DNA of 64,000 nucleotides from an uncultured Prevotellaceae bacterium (GTDB lineage: Bacteria; Bacteroidota; Bacteroidia; Bacteroidales; Bacteroidaceae): the NCBI GenBank assembly GCA_902776195.1, contig CACYPF010000012.1, positions 38,177 to 102,176 on the forward strand. The letters are read 5' to 3'. The notes under the pieces are model-generated. The model was not told the origin of the DNA, did not search any database, and saw only the letters and a list, made by a program, of their open reading frames with translations. Numbering within the stretch: the stretch's first letter is position 1; each line of letters begins with the position of its first letter. The position numbers and the translations under genes are program-made. Positions 49,811-55,399 of this stretch are shown in pieces.

Positions 49811-51460
49811 ATGAATAAGATATTCAATAAAATCACAATGGCTTTTGCAATCGGTCTTTCCCTATCAGGGATGACCGCTTGCTCAGACCCTGGCGATCCC
49901 ATCACCAGTATGGAGTTTAGCCGTCTGTTCAGCCCAACAACGCTGGAGGCTAAGGTTCAGAGCACCACTGGAGTAAAACTGACTTGGTTTGCCATCTCTG
50001 CCGCTGAGAATTATCAGATAGAGATTTATGCTGATGATCCTAATATGGAGTTCAGCGGTACCCCTGCATACCAGATAACAGCAGTTCCTGAGACAGGTGA
50101 CACCCAAGCTGCAAGGTCAGAATGCACGTGGACACTGCCCGCTGGCACTCTGGAAGGCGAGACCACTTACTCTATACGCCTGAAAGCTATTGGTGACAAT
50201 ATGGAGTCTAATTGGGCAGCTACTACTTTTGAGACTGGAACAGAACAGATTTTCTATGATGTTCCGACGACAGACATTACTAAGACTTCTGTCACTCTGA
50301 AATGGCCTGCTGGAACTTCTGTTACAAAGATTACAGTTGAAAAGAGCAGTGAGGTGATTCAGGAGCACACTCTGACAGCAGACGAAATTGCTGCTGGTGA
50401 GGCAACTATTGAAGATTTAAAGGTTGAAAGTACCTATACCTTCTACATCTACAACGGAGAGAAACAGCGTGGTAAGATCAAGGTTGCTACCCTGCCTAAC
50501 TACACTCCTGCTACTTCATGCACAGAACTGCTTGATGCTATTGAGGCTGCTGAGCCCGGTGAGGTTATCATGTTGACAGAAAACATGGTTTATGACTTCA
50601 CTGATGCAGCTGCAATGGGTAAGGAAGAGGCTGTTAAATCAATTAAGATTGAGAAAGATATCGTACTTAACACCAATAACGGTGCTACCATTAAGGGCGT
50701 GTACTTCCAAATCTTTGCTGGCGCAAGCCTTGAGATAGCAAACATCACTTTGGACGGTGAGAATGGCTCAGGTGACCAAGCATTCAATTATAAGGATGCA
50801 GGTAATTATGCAAAACTTTACATCCATAATGCAGAAATCAAGAACTACACTAAGGGATTCTTCTATATCAATGTAGCTGCTGTAATCGACAACATCACTA
50901 TTGATAAGTGTACCATCCACAATATTGTATGTTCTGGTGGTGACTTGTTCGATAGCCGTTCTGGTGGATACAACACATTCAACCTGACAAACAACACTAT
51001 CTATGAGTGTGCTTTAAGTCGTGACTTTATCCGTATGGACGATGCTTCAGGTTCTGTAACAGCTACTCCTGTTATAAATATTGACCACAATACTCTGTAT
51101 AATGTAGGTAGTGCAGGTGCTAACTATCGTCTATTGTATGTTCGTTTTGCCGGAAACGTCATCAACTGGACGAACAATGTGGTAGCTAACACCAATTACA
51201 AACGTGGTTTCTCAAATCAGAAGAACACAGCGATTCCAACCTTTAAGAACAACTTCTACTTCAACACAGTGAACTTGTTAAGCGCTGGTAGCACTGCTGA
51301 TGCAACTATCACATTCTACGACAATGACACCTTCGGTGGTAATGGTACTGAGGTAACTGCAGATCCATTCAAGGATGCTGCTAATGGTGATTTCACCATC
51401 ACAGACACGAAGATTATGGATAAGGAAGCTGGTGACCCACGCTGGTATACAGCTCAGTAA
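49811..51460 (+). CDS. DUF4957/DUF5123-like surface lipoprotein of the pectin locus
   Basis: 549 residues. Lipobox TACS (Cys about 24). Two fibronectin-III-like stretches (about 40-140 and 150-230) precede a parallel beta-helix region (about 240-540) rich in Asn and Thr with repeating 'I.N.T/I.' turns. This is the layout of the DUF4957/DUF5123 proteins that accompany SusCD pairs in pectin loci, where they are thought to bind the polymer at the surface. No lyase catalytic motif is seen. Its stop codon is the first triplet of repeat R1. Confidence 0.8.
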   Translation: MNKIFNKITMAFAIGLSLSGMTACSDPGDPITSMEFSRLFSPTTLEAKVQSTTGVKLTWFAISAAENYQIEIYADDPNMEFSGTPAYQITAVPETGDTQAARSECTWTLPAGTLEGETTYSIRLKAIGDNMESNWAATTFETGTEQIFYDVPTTDITKTSVTLKWPAGTSVTKITVEKSSEVIQEHTLTADEIAAGEATIEDLKVESTYTFYIYNGEKQRGKIKVATLPNYTPATSCTELLDAIEAAEPGEVIMLTENMVYDFTDAAAMGKEEAVKSIKIEKDIVLNTNNGATIKGVYFQIFAGASLEIANITLDGENGSGDQAFNYKDAGNYAKLYIHNAEIKNYTKGFFYINVAAVIDNITIDKCTIHNIVCSGGDLFDSRSGGYNTFNLTNNTIYECALSRDFIRMDDASGSVTATPVINIDHNTLYNVGSAGANYRLLYVRFAGNVINWTNNVVANTNYKRGFSNQKNTAIPTFKNNFYFNTVNLLSAGSTADATITFYDNDTFGGNGTEVTADPFKDAANGDFTITDTKIMDKEAGDPRWYTAQ

Positions 51461-51565
51461 TCCATCCCCTACGCTATAACTTAAACGGGCAGACATGCAG
51501 ATTGTCTGCCCGTTTGTTTTTTCCCGAAAAGTTTTGTTTATTTATATTTATATTGTATCTTTGCA
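51458..51565 (+). repeat. Terminator+promoter repeat, copy R1
   Basis: Begins with the TAA of the upstream lipoprotein gene. It contains the terminator hairpin ACGGGCAGAC/GTCTGCCCGT (51485-51494 with 51504-51513) and T-run, then an AT-rich spacer and the -7 box TATCTTTG (51556-51563) that drives mntA. R2 copies almost all of it; R3 copies the terminator part. Confidence 0.93.
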
Positions 51566-51578
51566 AATAAAATACGAA

Positions 51579-51869
51579 ATGAATACGAAGATAAAAAATA
51601 CAATAAGTGATTATTTCAAGACTCAACCTGTAGAGAAGGCATGGGTATTTGGATCATTCTCCCGAGGTGAGGAAAGGCTTGATAGTGATGTGGATATCCT
51701 TGTTTCTCTCATCCCCGGAACACGCTTAGGACTAAGATTCTTTGCCATGAGTTTGGAATTAGAACAATTACTTAATCGCCCTGTTGACCTCGTAATAGAA
51801 GGTGACATACTTCCGTTTGCTGAAAAGACTGTCAACAAGGATAAAATATTAGTATATGCGAGAGCCTGA
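51579..51869 (+). CDS. mntA: MntA-type antitoxin nucleotidyltransferase
   Basis: 96 residues from ATG 51579 (longer upstream reading would start in the terminator). It has the exact minimal-nucleotidyltransferase signature GS-x10-D-x-D: GSFSRGEERLDSDVDI near 25, with a third acidic residue in VDLVIEGD. In known MntA-HepT pairs this enzyme AMPylates a Tyr on HepT and so neutralises it. The gene overlaps the HepT gene by 14 bases. Promoter and terminator both come from flanking repeats. Confidence 0.9.
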   Translation: MNTKIKNTISDYFKTQPVEKAWVFGSFSRGEERLDSDVDILVSLIPGTRLGLRFFAMSLELEQLLNRPVDLVIEGDILPFAEKTVNKDKILVYARA

Positions 51870-52218
51870 AAGAGATTTTTCACGATTACAGCATATCCTC
51901 ACAGCAATTACCTGTGTGGAAGAGTATATTAATGGAATTAGCGAGGAAGAGTTAAAGAATGACAGACTACGCCTTCATGCCACAATTTATAACGTACAGA
52001 TCATAGGAGAGGCCGTTTATAAATTGACAGATGATTTCAAACAAAAGCATCCTATGACTCCATGGGCTGTCATTGAGAAAATGAGACACATCTTGGTACA
52101 TGATTATTTCAGAATTAATTTTGATGTGCTTTGGGACGTAATTACCAAAGACATACCCTTACTGAACTCACAAATCAAGAAGTATATTACTGAATTTAAT
52201 CCATCCCCTACTCTATAA
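51856..52218 (+). CDS. hepT: HepT-type toxin (DUF86, HEPN RNase)
   Basis: 120 residues, helical HEPN fold. The toxin motif R-x4-H-x-Y appears as RHILVHDY near 76, with the Tyr that MntA modifies. The last six residues (NPSPTL) and the stop are encoded by repeat R2: the upstream copy has TAA where HepT reads on, so the natural 3' end of hepT has been replaced by repeat sequence. The motif is intact and the pair looks functional. Confidence 0.9.
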   Translation: MREPERDFSRLQHILTAITCVEEYINGISEEELKNDRLRLHATIYNVQIIGEAVYKLTDDFKQKHPMTPWAVIEKMRHILVHDYFRINFDVLWDVITKDIPLLNSQIKKYITEFNPSPTL

Positions 52219-52303
52219 CTCTAACGGGCAGACATGCAGATTGTCTGCCCGTTTGTTTTCCCCGAAAAGTTTTGTTTATTTATATTTATATTGTATCTTT
52301 GCA
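52197..52303 (+). repeat. Terminator+promoter repeat, copy R2
   Basis: Nearly identical to R1 over its whole length, with a few substitutions and one indel, including the terminator hairpin and the -7 box TATCTTTG (52294-52301) of the next small gene. Its first 20 or so bases code for the HepT C-terminus. Confidence 0.93.
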
Positions 52304-52319
52304 GAAAATATATAGCATA

Positions 52320-52552
52320 ATGGCTAAGAAACGTATAAGAATAGATAGTAATACGAAGAGAGATTTATATGATAAATTCAGCGATTACACACTGGATTTA
52401 TCAAAGTTAGTCTTTGGAGGTGTTATTCTTGCAGGCATTATGGGCTGAGCGTTAATCCCAACATACTATTTGGACTGGGAGCTGTATCTGTTATTATATT
52501 AACATTAGTAGGATTTGTATTTATAATTTTGAAACATAACAATAGGAGGTAA
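52320..52552 (+). pseudogene. DUF6722-like small membrane protein with a -1 frameshift
   Basis: ATG 52320 opens a frame (MAKKRIRIDSNTKRDLYDKF..) that reaches LSKLVFGGVILAGIMG and stops at TGA 52446-52448. In another frame the protein plainly continues from GLSVNPNILFGLGAVSVIIL to KHNNRR and TAA 52550-52552. Restoring one G in the ATGGGCTG run (52440-52447) gives a 77-residue protein with two membrane helices, resembling the Bacteroidota DUF6722 family. It is either a real disruption, a sequencing error in a G-run, or a programmed shift. Confidence 0.7.
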
Positions 52553-52555
52553 ACT

Positions 52556-52666
52556 ATGGGACTTATTTATTTTATATCCTTTTTCACTATTATTGCTGCC
52601 TTCATACTTATATGGGCACTATACCAATTACATAACATGTCAGACAATCAAGTAGAGACGAAATAA
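52556..52666 (+). CDS. 36-residue single-pass membrane micro-protein
   Basis: MGLIYFISFFTIIAAFILIW then a short polar tail ending NQVETK. One membrane helix. It has a textbook Shine-Dalgarno GGAGG (52545-52549) seven bases before the ATG, rare in Bacteroidota, and the SD overlaps the last codons of the upstream frame, implying coupling. The TAA is the first triplet of repeat R3. Confidence 0.62.
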   Translation: MGLIYFISFFTIIAAFILIWALYQLHNMSDNQVETK

Positions 52667-52726
52667 TTCATCCCCTACGCTATAACTCAAACGGGCAGAC
52701 ATGCAGATTGTCTGCCCGTTTGTTTG
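52664..52726 (+). repeat. Terminator repeat, copy R3
   Basis: Matches R1 from the TAA through the terminator hairpin (ACGGGCAGAC/GTCTGCCCGT) and GTTTGTTT, then diverges into the GH3 promoter (TATCTTTG 52746-52753). Confidence 0.9.
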
Positions 52727-52774
52727 TATATAAAGAAAAAAGTATTATCTTTGCAAGTACTAGATAATACTTAT

Positions 52775-55399
52775 ATGATGAAACATAAACTGATGGCAAT
52801 CCTATGGATAGGATTTCAAACGGTCATGGCAAGTGCACAGATGCTACCTTACCAGAATCCGCAACTAAGTGCTGAGGAGCGTGCGGAAGACTTATTAGGA
52901 CGACTGACGTTAGAGGAGAAGACGCAATTGATGATGGATGTATCACCAGCCATTCCCCGACTGGGCATCCCTGAGTTTCATTGGTGGAGTGAGGCACTGC
53001 ATGGAATCGGACGAAACGGCATCGCCACAGTATTCCCCATCACAATGGGTATGGCTGCCACCTTCAATGACTATTTAGTATATCAGGCATTCACTGCTGC
53101 CAGTGATGAGGCACGAGCCAAGAACACTGAGGCTCGACAAAAGAACGACATCAGACGCTACAGAGGTTTGTCGTTCTGGACTCCGAATATTAATATCTTC
53201 CGTGATCCACGATGGGGACGCGGACAGGAGACATATGGTGAGGATCCCTACCTCACCACTCGCATGGGACTTGCTGTGGTGAATGGACTGCAGGGACAAG
53301 AGTTTTCCAGAAGCGCTAGTAGTACTAGTAGCACTAGAAAATACAAGAAACTCTTTGCTTGCGCTAAGCATTACGCTGTGCATAGCGGACCGGAATGGAA
53401 CCGCCATGAGTTCAATATTGAACAACTGCCTGAGCGTGACCTTTGGGAAACTTATCTACCCGCTTTTAAGGCATTGGTAAAGGAAGGAAACGTCAAGGAG
53501 ATTATGTGTGCTTACCAAGCTATCGACGGAGAACCGTGCTGTGGCAACACTCGCTACTTACACCGGATCCTGCGAGACGAATGGGGATTTCAGGGCATCG
53601 TGACAAGTGACTGCGGTGCCATCGATGATTTCTACAAACCGGGACGCCATCATTTTGTCAAGACGGAGGAAGATGCTGCCGCACAAGCTGTCATTGCAGG
53701 AACAGACGTGGAGTGTGGCAGTGTATACCGGTCGTTACCCGAAGCGGTGAGAACGGGTAAGATCACCGAGCAGCAACTGGACATCTCACTGCGCCGTCTG
53801 CTAATAGGACGTTTTGAGCTGGGTGACTTTGACCCTGACGAACTGGTGGAATGGACCAAGATTCCTATGAGTGTCGTGGCAAGCAAGGAACACAAGCAGA
53901 TTGCCCTTGAAGCTGCTCAACAAAGCATCGTATTGTTGAAGAACAACGGCATACTGCCACTAAACCCTAAACTCGCAACTCGCAACCCTAAACTCGTTGT
54001 CATGGGTCCTAATGCCAATGACTCTACCATGATGTGGGGAAACTACAATGGGCAACCTACTCAGACAATAACAATCCTACAGGGTATCCGCCAGTATCTG
54101 CCAAATGTACCATTCATACAAGGATGCACCTGGACAAGAAAAGAAGTGCCCACGAGCATGTTCAACCAGGTATTCACCGACGATGGGCGTCCGGGACTGC
54201 AAGCCAACTACTGGAATAATGAGCGAATGGAGGGACTGCCTGCCATTGCCATCCGTCTCACGGAACCTCTCCATCTGGACAATGGTGGCAACACCGCTTT
54301 TGCACCCGGTGTGAACCTGGAGCATTTCACTGCCCGCTACGAGGGTGTGTTCCGTCCGCAACAGGATGGTGAGGTGACCTTTGATATGCTCAATGATGAC
54401 TACTCCATGCTTGTCTTCAACGGTGACACACTTCTCAACCGGACAAATGGACACGGTGTACGTGATGCTCATCTGACCTACAAGGTAGAAGCAGGAAAAA
54501 GCTATCCCCTGCAACTGGTCTATGTGCAACATACAGGACATGCCATGCTGCAGTTCGACATCAACATGACCGATCACTCTGCTGAAGCCCTCTCCCCCCT
54601 TACAGCACCACAATCCCCATTAAAAGATGCTGATATTGTCATCTTTGTGGGAGGCATCTCGCCCCGTTTGGAAGGTGAGGAGATGAAGGTCAGCGAGGAT
54701 GGCTTCAAAGGCGGCGACCGCACCAGTATCGAACTGCCACAGGTACAGCGTGAGTGGCTTGCCAACCTCAAGAAAGCTGGTAAGCGCATCATCTATGTCA
54801 ACTGCTCTGGCTCTGCTATCGCATTGACTCCAGAAGACGAGATTGCCGACGCAATCGTACAGGGATGGTACGGTGGAGAGAAAGGTGGACAGGCTGTGGC
54901 TGATGTTCTTTTCGGAACATATAACCCTTGTGGAAAACTGCCCATAACATTCTATAAGAGCACTAACGACTTACCCGACTTCCTTGACTATCGGATGACG
55001 AACCGCACTTACAGATATTTCAAAGGCGAGCCCCTCTACCCCTTCGGCTATGGACTAAGCTACACCACGTTTGAGATTGGTGAGCCGCAGTATATATATA
55101 ATAAGGTACGCGTGAGAGTCAAGAATACCGGCAAACGGGAGGGCACGGAAGTCGTTCAGGTCTATATGCGGAATACCGCTGATACGGAAGGACCGCTGAA
55201 GACGCTGCGTGCCTATCAGCGTGTCAACCTGAAAGCTGGTGAGAGCAAGACAGTGGAGATTGATTTCCCACGCGAGCGCTTCGAGGGTTGGGATACAGCC
55301 ACCAACACCATGCGGGTTGTACCAGGAAAGTACGAACTGATGGTAGGCTCGTCAAGTGCTGACAACGATTTAAGGAAAATCATGGTTGATATCCAATAA
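52775..55399 (+). CDS. GH3 glycosidase with PA14 insertion (beta-xylosidase-like)
   Basis: 874 residues from ATG 52775. Signal peptide about 1-22. The GH3 N-terminal barrel has EFHWWSEALHGIGR near 67 and the nucleophile Asp in IVTSDCGAIDDF near 274. A PA14 domain (about 465-595) is inserted in the second GH3 domain, and a fibronectin-III-like domain ends the protein. The sequence style is that of GH3 beta-xylosidases/arabinofuranosidases; in a pectin locus it may act on xylogalacturonan or arabinan side chains. Two in-frame repeat insertions (53316-53342 and 53963-53996) lengthen loops. Lipid anchor absent. Confidence 0.87.
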   Translation: MMKHKLMAILWIGFQTVMASAQMLPYQNPQLSAEERAEDLLGRLTLEEKTQLMMDVSPAIPRLGIPEFHWWSEALHGIGRNGIATVFPITMGMAATFNDYLVYQAFTAASDEARAKNTEARQKNDIRRYRGLSFWTPNINIFRDPRWGRGQETYGEDPYLTTRMGLAVVNGLQGQEFSRSASSTSSTRKYKKLFACAKHYAVHSGPEWNRHEFNIEQLPERDLWETYLPAFKALVKEGNVKEIMCAYQAIDGEPCCGNTRYLHRILRDEWGFQGIVTSDCGAIDDFYKPGRHHFVKTEEDAAAQAVIAGTDVECGSVYRSLPEAVRTGKITEQQLDISLRRLLIGRFELGDFDPDELVEWTKIPMSVVASKEHKQIALEAAQQSIVLLKNNGILPLNPKLATRNPKLVVMGPNANDSTMMWGNYNGQPTQTITILQGIRQYLPNVPFIQGCTWTRKEVPTSMFNQVFTDDGRPGLQANYWNNERMEGLPAIAIRLTEPLHLDNGGNTAFAPGVNLEHFTARYEGVFRPQQDGEVTFDMLNDDYSMLVFNGDTLLNRTNGHGVRDAHLTYKVEAGKSYPLQLVYVQHTGHAMLQFDINMTDHSAEALSPLTAPQSPLKDADIVIFVGGISPRLEGEEMKVSEDGFKGGDRTSIELPQVQREWLANLKKAGKRIIYVNCSGSAIALTPEDEIADAIVQGWYGGEKGGQAVADVLFGTYNPCGKLPITFYKSTNDLPDFLDYRMTNRTYRYFKGEPLYPFGYGLSYTTFEIGEPQYIYNKVRVRVKNTGKREGTEVVQVYMRNTADTEGPLKTLRAYQRVNLKAGESKTVEIDFPRERFEGWDTATNTMRVVPGKYELMVGSSSADNDLRKIMVDIQ
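53316..53342. repeat. In-frame 9-bp repeat (CTAGTAGNA) inside the GH3 gene
   Basis: CTAGTAGTA, CTAGTAGCA, CTAGAAAAT. In frame it codes a Ser/Thr loop (SASSTSSTRK) in the GH3 barrel that has no obvious counterpart in the enzyme core. Same 9-bp period as the trp intergenic arrays. Confidence 0.7.
53963..53996. repeat. In-frame 21-bp direct repeat inside the GH3 gene
   Basis: AACCCTAAACTCG at 53963-53975 and again at 53984-53996, joined by CAACTCGC. It codes NPKLATRNPKL, a 7-residue duplication between the first and second GH3 domains. Confidence 0.75.

Follow-up and report, generated by a model that had tools for sequence, protein, structure and literature searches.

A terminator behind a DUF5123 gene of Prevotella as the site of variable arrays of small, mostly toxin–antitoxin-like cassettes

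Organization of the locus

A stretch of 64,000 nucleotides (the window) from an uncultured Prevotellaceae bacterium (assembly GCA_902776195.1, contig CACYPF010000012.1, positions 38,177 to 102,176 of the forward strand) contains a pectin locus in which two small gene units lie between three copies of a terminator module, behind a DUF4957/DUF5123 lipoprotein gene and ahead of a gene of a GH3 glycoside hydrolase. In relatives, different numbers and kinds of genes are found at the same place, which gives the site the character of a slot for exchangeable cassettes. The following features were identified:

49811–51460, + strand: DUF4957/DUF5123 lipoprotein gene of the pectin locus (Pfam, over the cut-off), the 3' end of which is taken as the landing site
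51431–51460, + strand: last 30 bp of this gene (GGTGACCCACGCTGG...TAA), identical in G000 (the genome of the window), G035 and G167, whose genes differ further upstream
51458–51522, + strand: module R1, with stop codon, conserved box and terminator hairpin (51482–51516)
51523–51574, + strand: promoter-like segment common to R1 and R2, copy of R1 (read as a promoter from its resemblance to a motif)
51579–51869, + strand: MntA-like putative antitoxin (nucleotidyltransferase) of cassette 1; Pfam NTP_transf_2 over, NCBIfam MntA under the cut-off
51856–52218, + strand: HepT-like putative toxin (HEPN) of cassette 1; Pfam HepT-like over, NCBIfam HepT under the cut-off
52197–52261, + strand: module R2, with terminator hairpin (52223–52253)
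52262–52312, + strand: promoter-like segment of R2
52320–52448, + strand: DUF6722-like small protein of cassette 2; Pfam DUF6722 over the cut-off, positions 1–23 of 49 only
52556–52666, + strand: 36-aa hydrophobic open reading frame (ORF) of cassette 2, the stop codon of which is the TAA of R3
52664–52728, + strand: module R3, with hairpin 52688–52722 and without the shared promoter segment 3' of it
52775–55399, + strand: GH3 glycoside hydrolase gene (Pfam), right border of the array

The core of R1–R3 is 62–65 bp long and is represented by TAA, CCATCCCCTACKCTATAAC, a perfect stem of 12–14 bp and a T-rich tail. In an ungapped comparison with R1 over 77 nt, R2 is 88% and R3 83% identical, which makes them a single repeat family; in a BLAST search of the whole genome with R1, R2 matched at 95% over 107 bp (E 4.5e-43) and R3 at 97% over 62 bp (E 1.7e-23). 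A shared terminator hairpin, as stated in the original prediction, is present, and no terminator-like stem within 51300–52900 is longer than those of the three modules; 8 such sites were found there vs. 0.8 ± 0.8 in shuffled sequences. The stop codon described there as shared is a real stop in R1 and R3, while the TAA of R2 is out of frame with HepT, whose frame enters R2 by six codons (NPSPTL) and ends at CTATAA of the module.

The segments 51518–51574 and 52256–52312, common to R1 and R2 only, are 93% identical. This segment (TATCTTTGC, about 50 bp) resembles, by its motif, a promoter of the Bacteroidetes type; a sigma-70 promoter scan of the region did not include it among the listed sites. 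Of the complete promoter predicted in R1 and R2, the common segment and its absence from R3 are plain, and the promoter function is presumed.

Cassette 1 encodes MNT and HEPN domains in overlapping genes of one operon, identified by Pfam matches over the cut-offs, with the stricter NCBIfam equivalog cut-offs missed. The MntA–HepT family comprises an RNase toxin neutralised by adenylylation (PMC7641770). The assignment of cassette 2 to a DUF6722-like protein with a micro-protein holds in part, as the DUF6722-like frame stops at 52446–52448 after 42 aa, ahead of the part matching the rest of the model. Within 52320–52552, a hydrophobic frame follows immediately after this 42-aa frame, owing to either an interruption or a sequence error; the piece after the stop, taken alone, matched no Pfam family, and neither did the 36-aa ORF in the Pfam scan. 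Both units have the low GC content ascribed to them, 0.36 and 0.31, vs. 0.43 and 0.50 in the 2-kb flanks. Their genes, initially described as small defence genes, are better read as toxin–antitoxin-like.

Structure of the module and its absence elsewhere in the genome

No copies of the module beyond R1–R3 were found in the own genome by BLAST and pattern search; a search for copies flanking other small genes had been suggested in the original prediction. A repeat dispersed through the genome was rejected: the pattern search yielded the three copies, one match with two mismatches (contig C4) and five with three mismatches, compared with 5 matches for the reversed control.

Among 21 module copies from eight genomes (17 of them distinct), the stem is paired in 98.5% of cells, and 17 stem cells are changed on both sides vs. 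6.1 in shuffles. Two of five measures showed no excess, namely, stem pairs with two-sided change (3 vs. 2.7) and pair types (5 vs. 7.7). Judged from the alignment, the module hairpin is conserved as a structure although its sequence drifts.

The stop codon followed by CCCTACTCTAT or a close variant also occurs before unrelated hairpins 3' of other Prevotella genes (L078:5042, reverse; L081:3117; L083:3006; L128:2710), and the box may accordingly be part of a wider terminator family.

States of the array in Prevotella

The module was sought in genomes of the genus by a DNA search (399 genomes), a covariance model (399) and a refined model (387 genomes, at least 85% complete), the draws overlapping. 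It was found 3' of a DUF5123-type gene in eleven Prevotella genomes: G000, G035 (RUG037), G167 (Prevotella sp. tf2-5), G358, G234 (Reindeer_2_mag_97), G333 (Tb.RUG.517), G162, G302, G439, G440 and G441. The names of the named relatives suggest a rumen origin. The upstream gene scores over the Pfam DUF5123 cut-off in G000 and nine of the ten relatives, the remaining one being G440 (28.7 vs. 35.1). Outside the genus, the covariance model detected no module in 88 genomes of 21 genera; of 8 own-genus genomes in the same draw, G000 alone contained it.

Alignments of the promoter half only, which made up most matches of the DNA search (100 of the 399 genomes), were excluded as modules, and so were weak model matches with a similar box, another hairpin and other genes (L078, L080, L081, L083, L128) or unrelated or weak ones (L079, L082, L084, L086, L129). 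The count of eleven also leaves out model matches in G183, G385, G051, G203, G391 and G201, and locus L126. The latter (G452:C120) contains a 182-aa ORF and an XRE protein behind a related, weaker terminator, between two large ORFs, with two weak module matches on the contig. Likewise uncounted is L085 (G220), where a contig starts within the hairpin and continues into a GH3 gene with 67% identity to that of the window; it is probably a further module site.

The state of the array varies among these genomes, and a fixed arrangement in relatives, which would have spoken against insertion, was not observed. The empty sites that the original prediction proposed to look for, with a single module and no cassette, are present in G333, G440 and G441; the seven other relatives carry the same or other cassettes between modules. 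One cassette is found in G167 and G439 (an ORF of 40–42 aa with DUF6169), G358 (a second MntA–HepT type), G302 (HigB/Gp49 with XRE) and G234 (p40 with DUF6169, then a 106-aa gene with a module on the left side only). Two cassettes are present in G000 and G035, and four in G162, namely, 50 aa with GNAT; HigBA; p40 with DUF6169; and 59 aa with a VapD/Cas2-like protein. In total, 13 units of 404–816 bp, with a GC content of 0.31–0.40 and seven kinds of content, lie between modules in eight genomes.

Five of the seven kinds are toxin–antitoxin-like by sequence, so that the contents appear to be mostly of this type (MntA–HepT, HigBA, GNAT, VapD-like and p40 with DUF6169). The ORF of 40–42 aa (p40) followed by a 165-aa DUF6169 protein (e.g., L076:7247–7866) recurs in four arrays and is a candidate for an undescribed toxin–antitoxin family; no paper naming DUF6169 or DUF6722 was found in the literature search.

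A chance resemblance of unrelated terminators, or an assembly artefact, is extremely improbable as the source of the repeats. The genome of the window and many relatives are drafts, and in G234 the DUF5123-type gene lies on a separate contig ending in the same module, the array being split at the contig end inside the module, as might be seen in an artefact; the E-values of R2 and R3 given above speak against it, and so does the recurrence of arrays in independent assemblies, among them contigs of 444 kb (Prevotella sp. tf2-5) and 273 kb (RUG037). Chance terminators were rejected on these E-values and on the recurrence in other genomes.

Exchange at the module and joints of the cassettes

Alignments between genomes break at the module. 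G035 and G167 are 91% identical over 3472 bp, as far as the end of the left module, and the cassettes beyond differ. G167 and G333 are 97.2% identical over 4356 bp starting at base 1 of the module, ahead of which G167 has a cassette and G333 none. A single block of 908 bp, 96.6% identical in G000 and G035, holds the MntA–HepT unit and both module cores, and 891 bp common to G162 and G302 at 98.4% hold HigBA and both modules. The DUF5123 proteins of G000 and G035 are only 34% identical; between the DUF5123 gene of G000 and those of G035 and G167 the last 30 bp are identical, and the bins further upstream are 41, 81 (few columns, gaps), 50 and 41% identical. The same cassette beside such dissimilar host genes, together with the breaks at the module, indicates that cassettes move between species.

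The last cassette gene terminates in frame at the first TAA of the module in nine of the 13 units. In two units, which carry the same HepT (G000 and G035), the frame extends six codons past this TAA, and in the other two (G358 and unit 1 of G162) the gene has its own stop, and about 30 bp of a DUF5123 3' end lie between it and the module. The DUF5123 genes of all eight occupied sites end in GDPRW and a few residues, as do those of the empty sites in G440 and G441; in G333 the end is GAEKWYK. Seven DUF6169 relatives from elsewhere end at about the same residue as the cassette gene, which is accordingly not truncated.

Copies of the module are more alike within a locus (identity 0.945) than between loci (0.775), and none of 5000 label shuffles reached this difference, which is contrary to what unrelated terminators would give; 20 of the 21 copies entered the comparison (one is a contig-end overlap), and none of them came from G439–G441. 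The exception is G167, in which the left copy belongs to one type and the right copy to the other; an exchange of one side would produce this.

The likeness within loci also fits another scenario, according to which the cassettes arrived by any route and the local terminator was later copied behind each gene through selection for insulation and gene conversion; the hairpin, kept paired while changing, agrees with it as well. Yet the blocks common to different species hold cassette and modules together, and elsewhere the sequence that was copied is in many cases no terminator (see below); this scenario is considered rather improbable.

Direct repeats around the same gene families in the genus

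Loci of the cassette gene families were analysed for direct repeats of at least 35 bp and at least 80% identity (E ≤ 1e-4, low-complexity filtering off) spanning the gene within 1.5 kb on each side. The set comprised 67 DUF6169 loci (27 outside module arrays and 40 taken down the E-value list, a subset of the listed places), as well as 28 HepT and 28 HigB loci (30 each minus two array loci). Genes of DUF6169 are present in 88 of 298 genomes of the genus, often close to contig ends.

A direct repeat spans 27 of the 67 DUF6169 loci outside arrays and 38 of all 123 loci, vs. 1 of 100 controls (p 1.6e-10, only a guide, since several loci come from one genome). The controls were regions 18–31 kb away on the same contigs (0/20), weak promoter matches (0/20), glyoxalase genes (1/30) and HTH_17 genes (0/30); 20 of the controls were obtained from L011–L035 after removal of L012, an array, and of L015, L016, L021 and L035, which are too short. 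At a stricter threshold (at least 60 bp and 85%), the figures are 23/123 vs. 1/100 (p 5.7e-6, again only a guide). Inverted repeats were found at three of 67 DUF6169, one of 28 HepT and none of 28 HigB loci. A second DUF6169 gene of the own genome, near the end of contig C3 (L160:104–2080), is spanned by a direct repeat of 54 bp with 91% identity.

The repeats at the 38 loci are 36–196 bp long, compared with 62–107 bp at the array. Those of at least 60 bp are unrelated between loci, except for L151–L153, L270/L271 and one match of 26 bp, which speaks against a single att site. In L135 (G117, 1110–2549), two tandem tRNA-Arg genes are present, and the end of the second, with its terminator, is repeated beyond the DUF6169 gene. 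The copied sequence is a terminator and promoter 3' of an ORF of 356–386 aa in L152 and L153, a terminator overlapping the HepT stop in L228 and, apparently, a gene end with a terminator in L169. Terminator-like hairpins were found in 18 of the 38 upstream copies (p 1.4e-4) and 16 of the 38 downstream copies vs. 32 of 190 random segments, and in both copies at 15 of 38 loci vs. 7 of 190 random pairs. Across the genus, what is duplicated is in general whatever local sequence is present, be it a gene end, a terminator, a promoter or a tRNA end, rather than one special module; terminators are over-represented.

Recombinases and possible vehicles

Eight tyrosine-recombinase-like matches were found in the own genome (93.6% complete), none of them on contig C12, which carries the window, in a scan with the integron-integrase model only, serine recombinases and transposases lying outside it; within this scope, the absence of a nearby recombinase, as originally predicted, was borne out. 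The ORF lists of all 13 inserts contain no recombinase. None of the eight matches exceeds the TIGR02249 cut-off for the integron integrase IntI, and identity with an integron was rejected on this basis. In a comparison with attC sites, which have R/L boxes and extrahelical bases, the stem is perfect over 12–14 bp, and inspection by eye against the consensus, without an attC program, revealed no R boxes.

Some mobile elements insert into the 3' ends of genes, which they restore. By analogy, a site-specific recombinase acting in trans might integrate the cassettes at the end of the DUF5123 gene, with the repeats as att sites. Such an origin would agree with the core conserved over eleven loci, with the duplication of a gene 3' end in the repeats of G358 and G162 and of the tRNA-Arg end in L135, and with the tyrosine-recombinase-like matches elsewhere in the genome. 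It is unlikely, given that no recombinase is encoded in the 13 inserts or among the matches on this contig, that the repeats end at variable points, between about 30 bp within the gene and the promoter, and that no common core exists among the repeats around these genes elsewhere.

The module had no exact-pattern match in viral contigs and no blastn match in plasmids, and its carriage by phages or plasmids was rejected on these searches. For DUF6169, two plasmid and two phage records with 33–37% identity were detected, and none in viral contigs. With these searches near-empty, no vehicle was found.

Proposed mechanism

The locus is an array of cassettes between modules, its cassettes are exchanged between species, and direct repeats are enriched around the same gene families across the genus. 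The empty and occupied sites in relatives support the original proposal that cassettes were inserted through duplication of an existing terminator or recombination at it, the mechanism itself being a matter of inference. The array may be of a type that has no recombinase of its own, grows by insertion with long target duplication, is shuffled through terminator homology and is kept by addiction; this reading is regarded as somewhat probable. The DUF5123 gene would acquire a small toxin–antitoxin operon at its end, with a second gene end and terminator left on the far side of the operon. The copied terminators would then provide homology, so that by recombination between modules cassettes could be swapped between species, added serially or deleted, and copies within a locus would be kept alike by duplication or gene conversion. 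Deletion between direct repeats would soon remove most inserts, while toxin–antitoxin cassettes would persist, cells losing them being poisoned. The terminator and promoter of each unit would insulate it from the pectin genes. We infer general homologous recombination as the agent of exchange because no recombinase is present in the inserts or on this contig, the repeat ends are variable and the repeats elsewhere are unrelated. The way the first joint forms is presumed, and addiction as the cause of retention is a hypothesis.

Several findings weigh against this mechanism. Conservation of the core across the eleven loci is what an att site would also show. The final ~970 bp 5' of the left module also differ between G167 and G333, which excludes a clean one-step insertion. 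Repeats span only seven of 28 HepT and four of 28 HigB loci, a lower rate than for DUF6169; no repeat was found at 85 of the 123 loci, and the 38 repeats include short ones and ones of simple sequence (e.g., L163 and L164). No toxin function is known for the DUF6722 pair, p40 with DUF6169 or the 106-aa gene.

Comparison with known systems

Insertion with long target duplication of restriction–modification genes was reportedly described by Nobusato et al. in 2000 and Furuta et al. in 2010. The name was given for these genes, an addictive two-gene system that lies between local direct repeats of the order of 100 bp and variable length, without a mobile element (PMC1643837, PMC3874152, PMC3031569). 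The present case differs in that the operons are toxin–antitoxin-like and found in Prevotella, terminators are over-represented, and one terminator is reused, giving an array of up to four cassettes exchanged between species. Variable local direct repeats of the order of 100 bp flank the inserts; in the comparison with an empty relative, G333 has one module vs. two in G167, and the sequence left of the site differs too. No report of terminator reuse building a species-shuffled array was found in the literature search, which mostly did not extend to subscription papers and preprints. The case may be regarded as the known signature of insertion with long target duplication, here in toxin–antitoxin genes, recurring at one terminator as an integron-like array.

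In super-integrons, toxin–antitoxin operons with their own promoters stabilise cassette arrays (PMC2654758). Small serial cassettes between repeats, toxin–antitoxin cassettes and the sharing of cassettes among species are common to integrons and the arrays described here. Unlike in integrons, the own genome encodes no integron integrase over the cut-off, the repeat consists of a stop codon followed by a plain, perfect terminator hairpin, and several repeat sequences exist in the genus. The pdif modules of Acinetobacter plasmids, with Xer sites of about 28 bp, also move toxin–antitoxin and other small genes without a recombinase of their own, whereas the direct repeats here are 60–110 bp long and contain a terminator. 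Elements of tyrosine recombinases at gene 3' ends similarly duplicate the gene end on both sides of the insert, but the inserts here are 404–816 bp long and lack a recombinase gene.

A broader and doubtful possibility is that Prevotella has a recombinase-free counterpart of integrons, in which terminators in general would serve as docking sites capturing toxin–antitoxin operons with duplication of the terminator, the inserts would be exchanged and stacked via the copied terminators and kept by addiction, and p40 with DUF6169 would be an undescribed toxin–antitoxin family adapted to this way of spreading.

By what route chromosomal toxin–antitoxin operons reach genomes when no vehicle can be seen, and what keeps them there, has long been asked. 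Both entry and retention become testable at a defined site that, across eleven Prevotella genomes (four of which have names), occurs empty, with a single cassette or with several. If the proposed mechanism is true, a terminator would provide an insulated point of entry within a metabolic locus.

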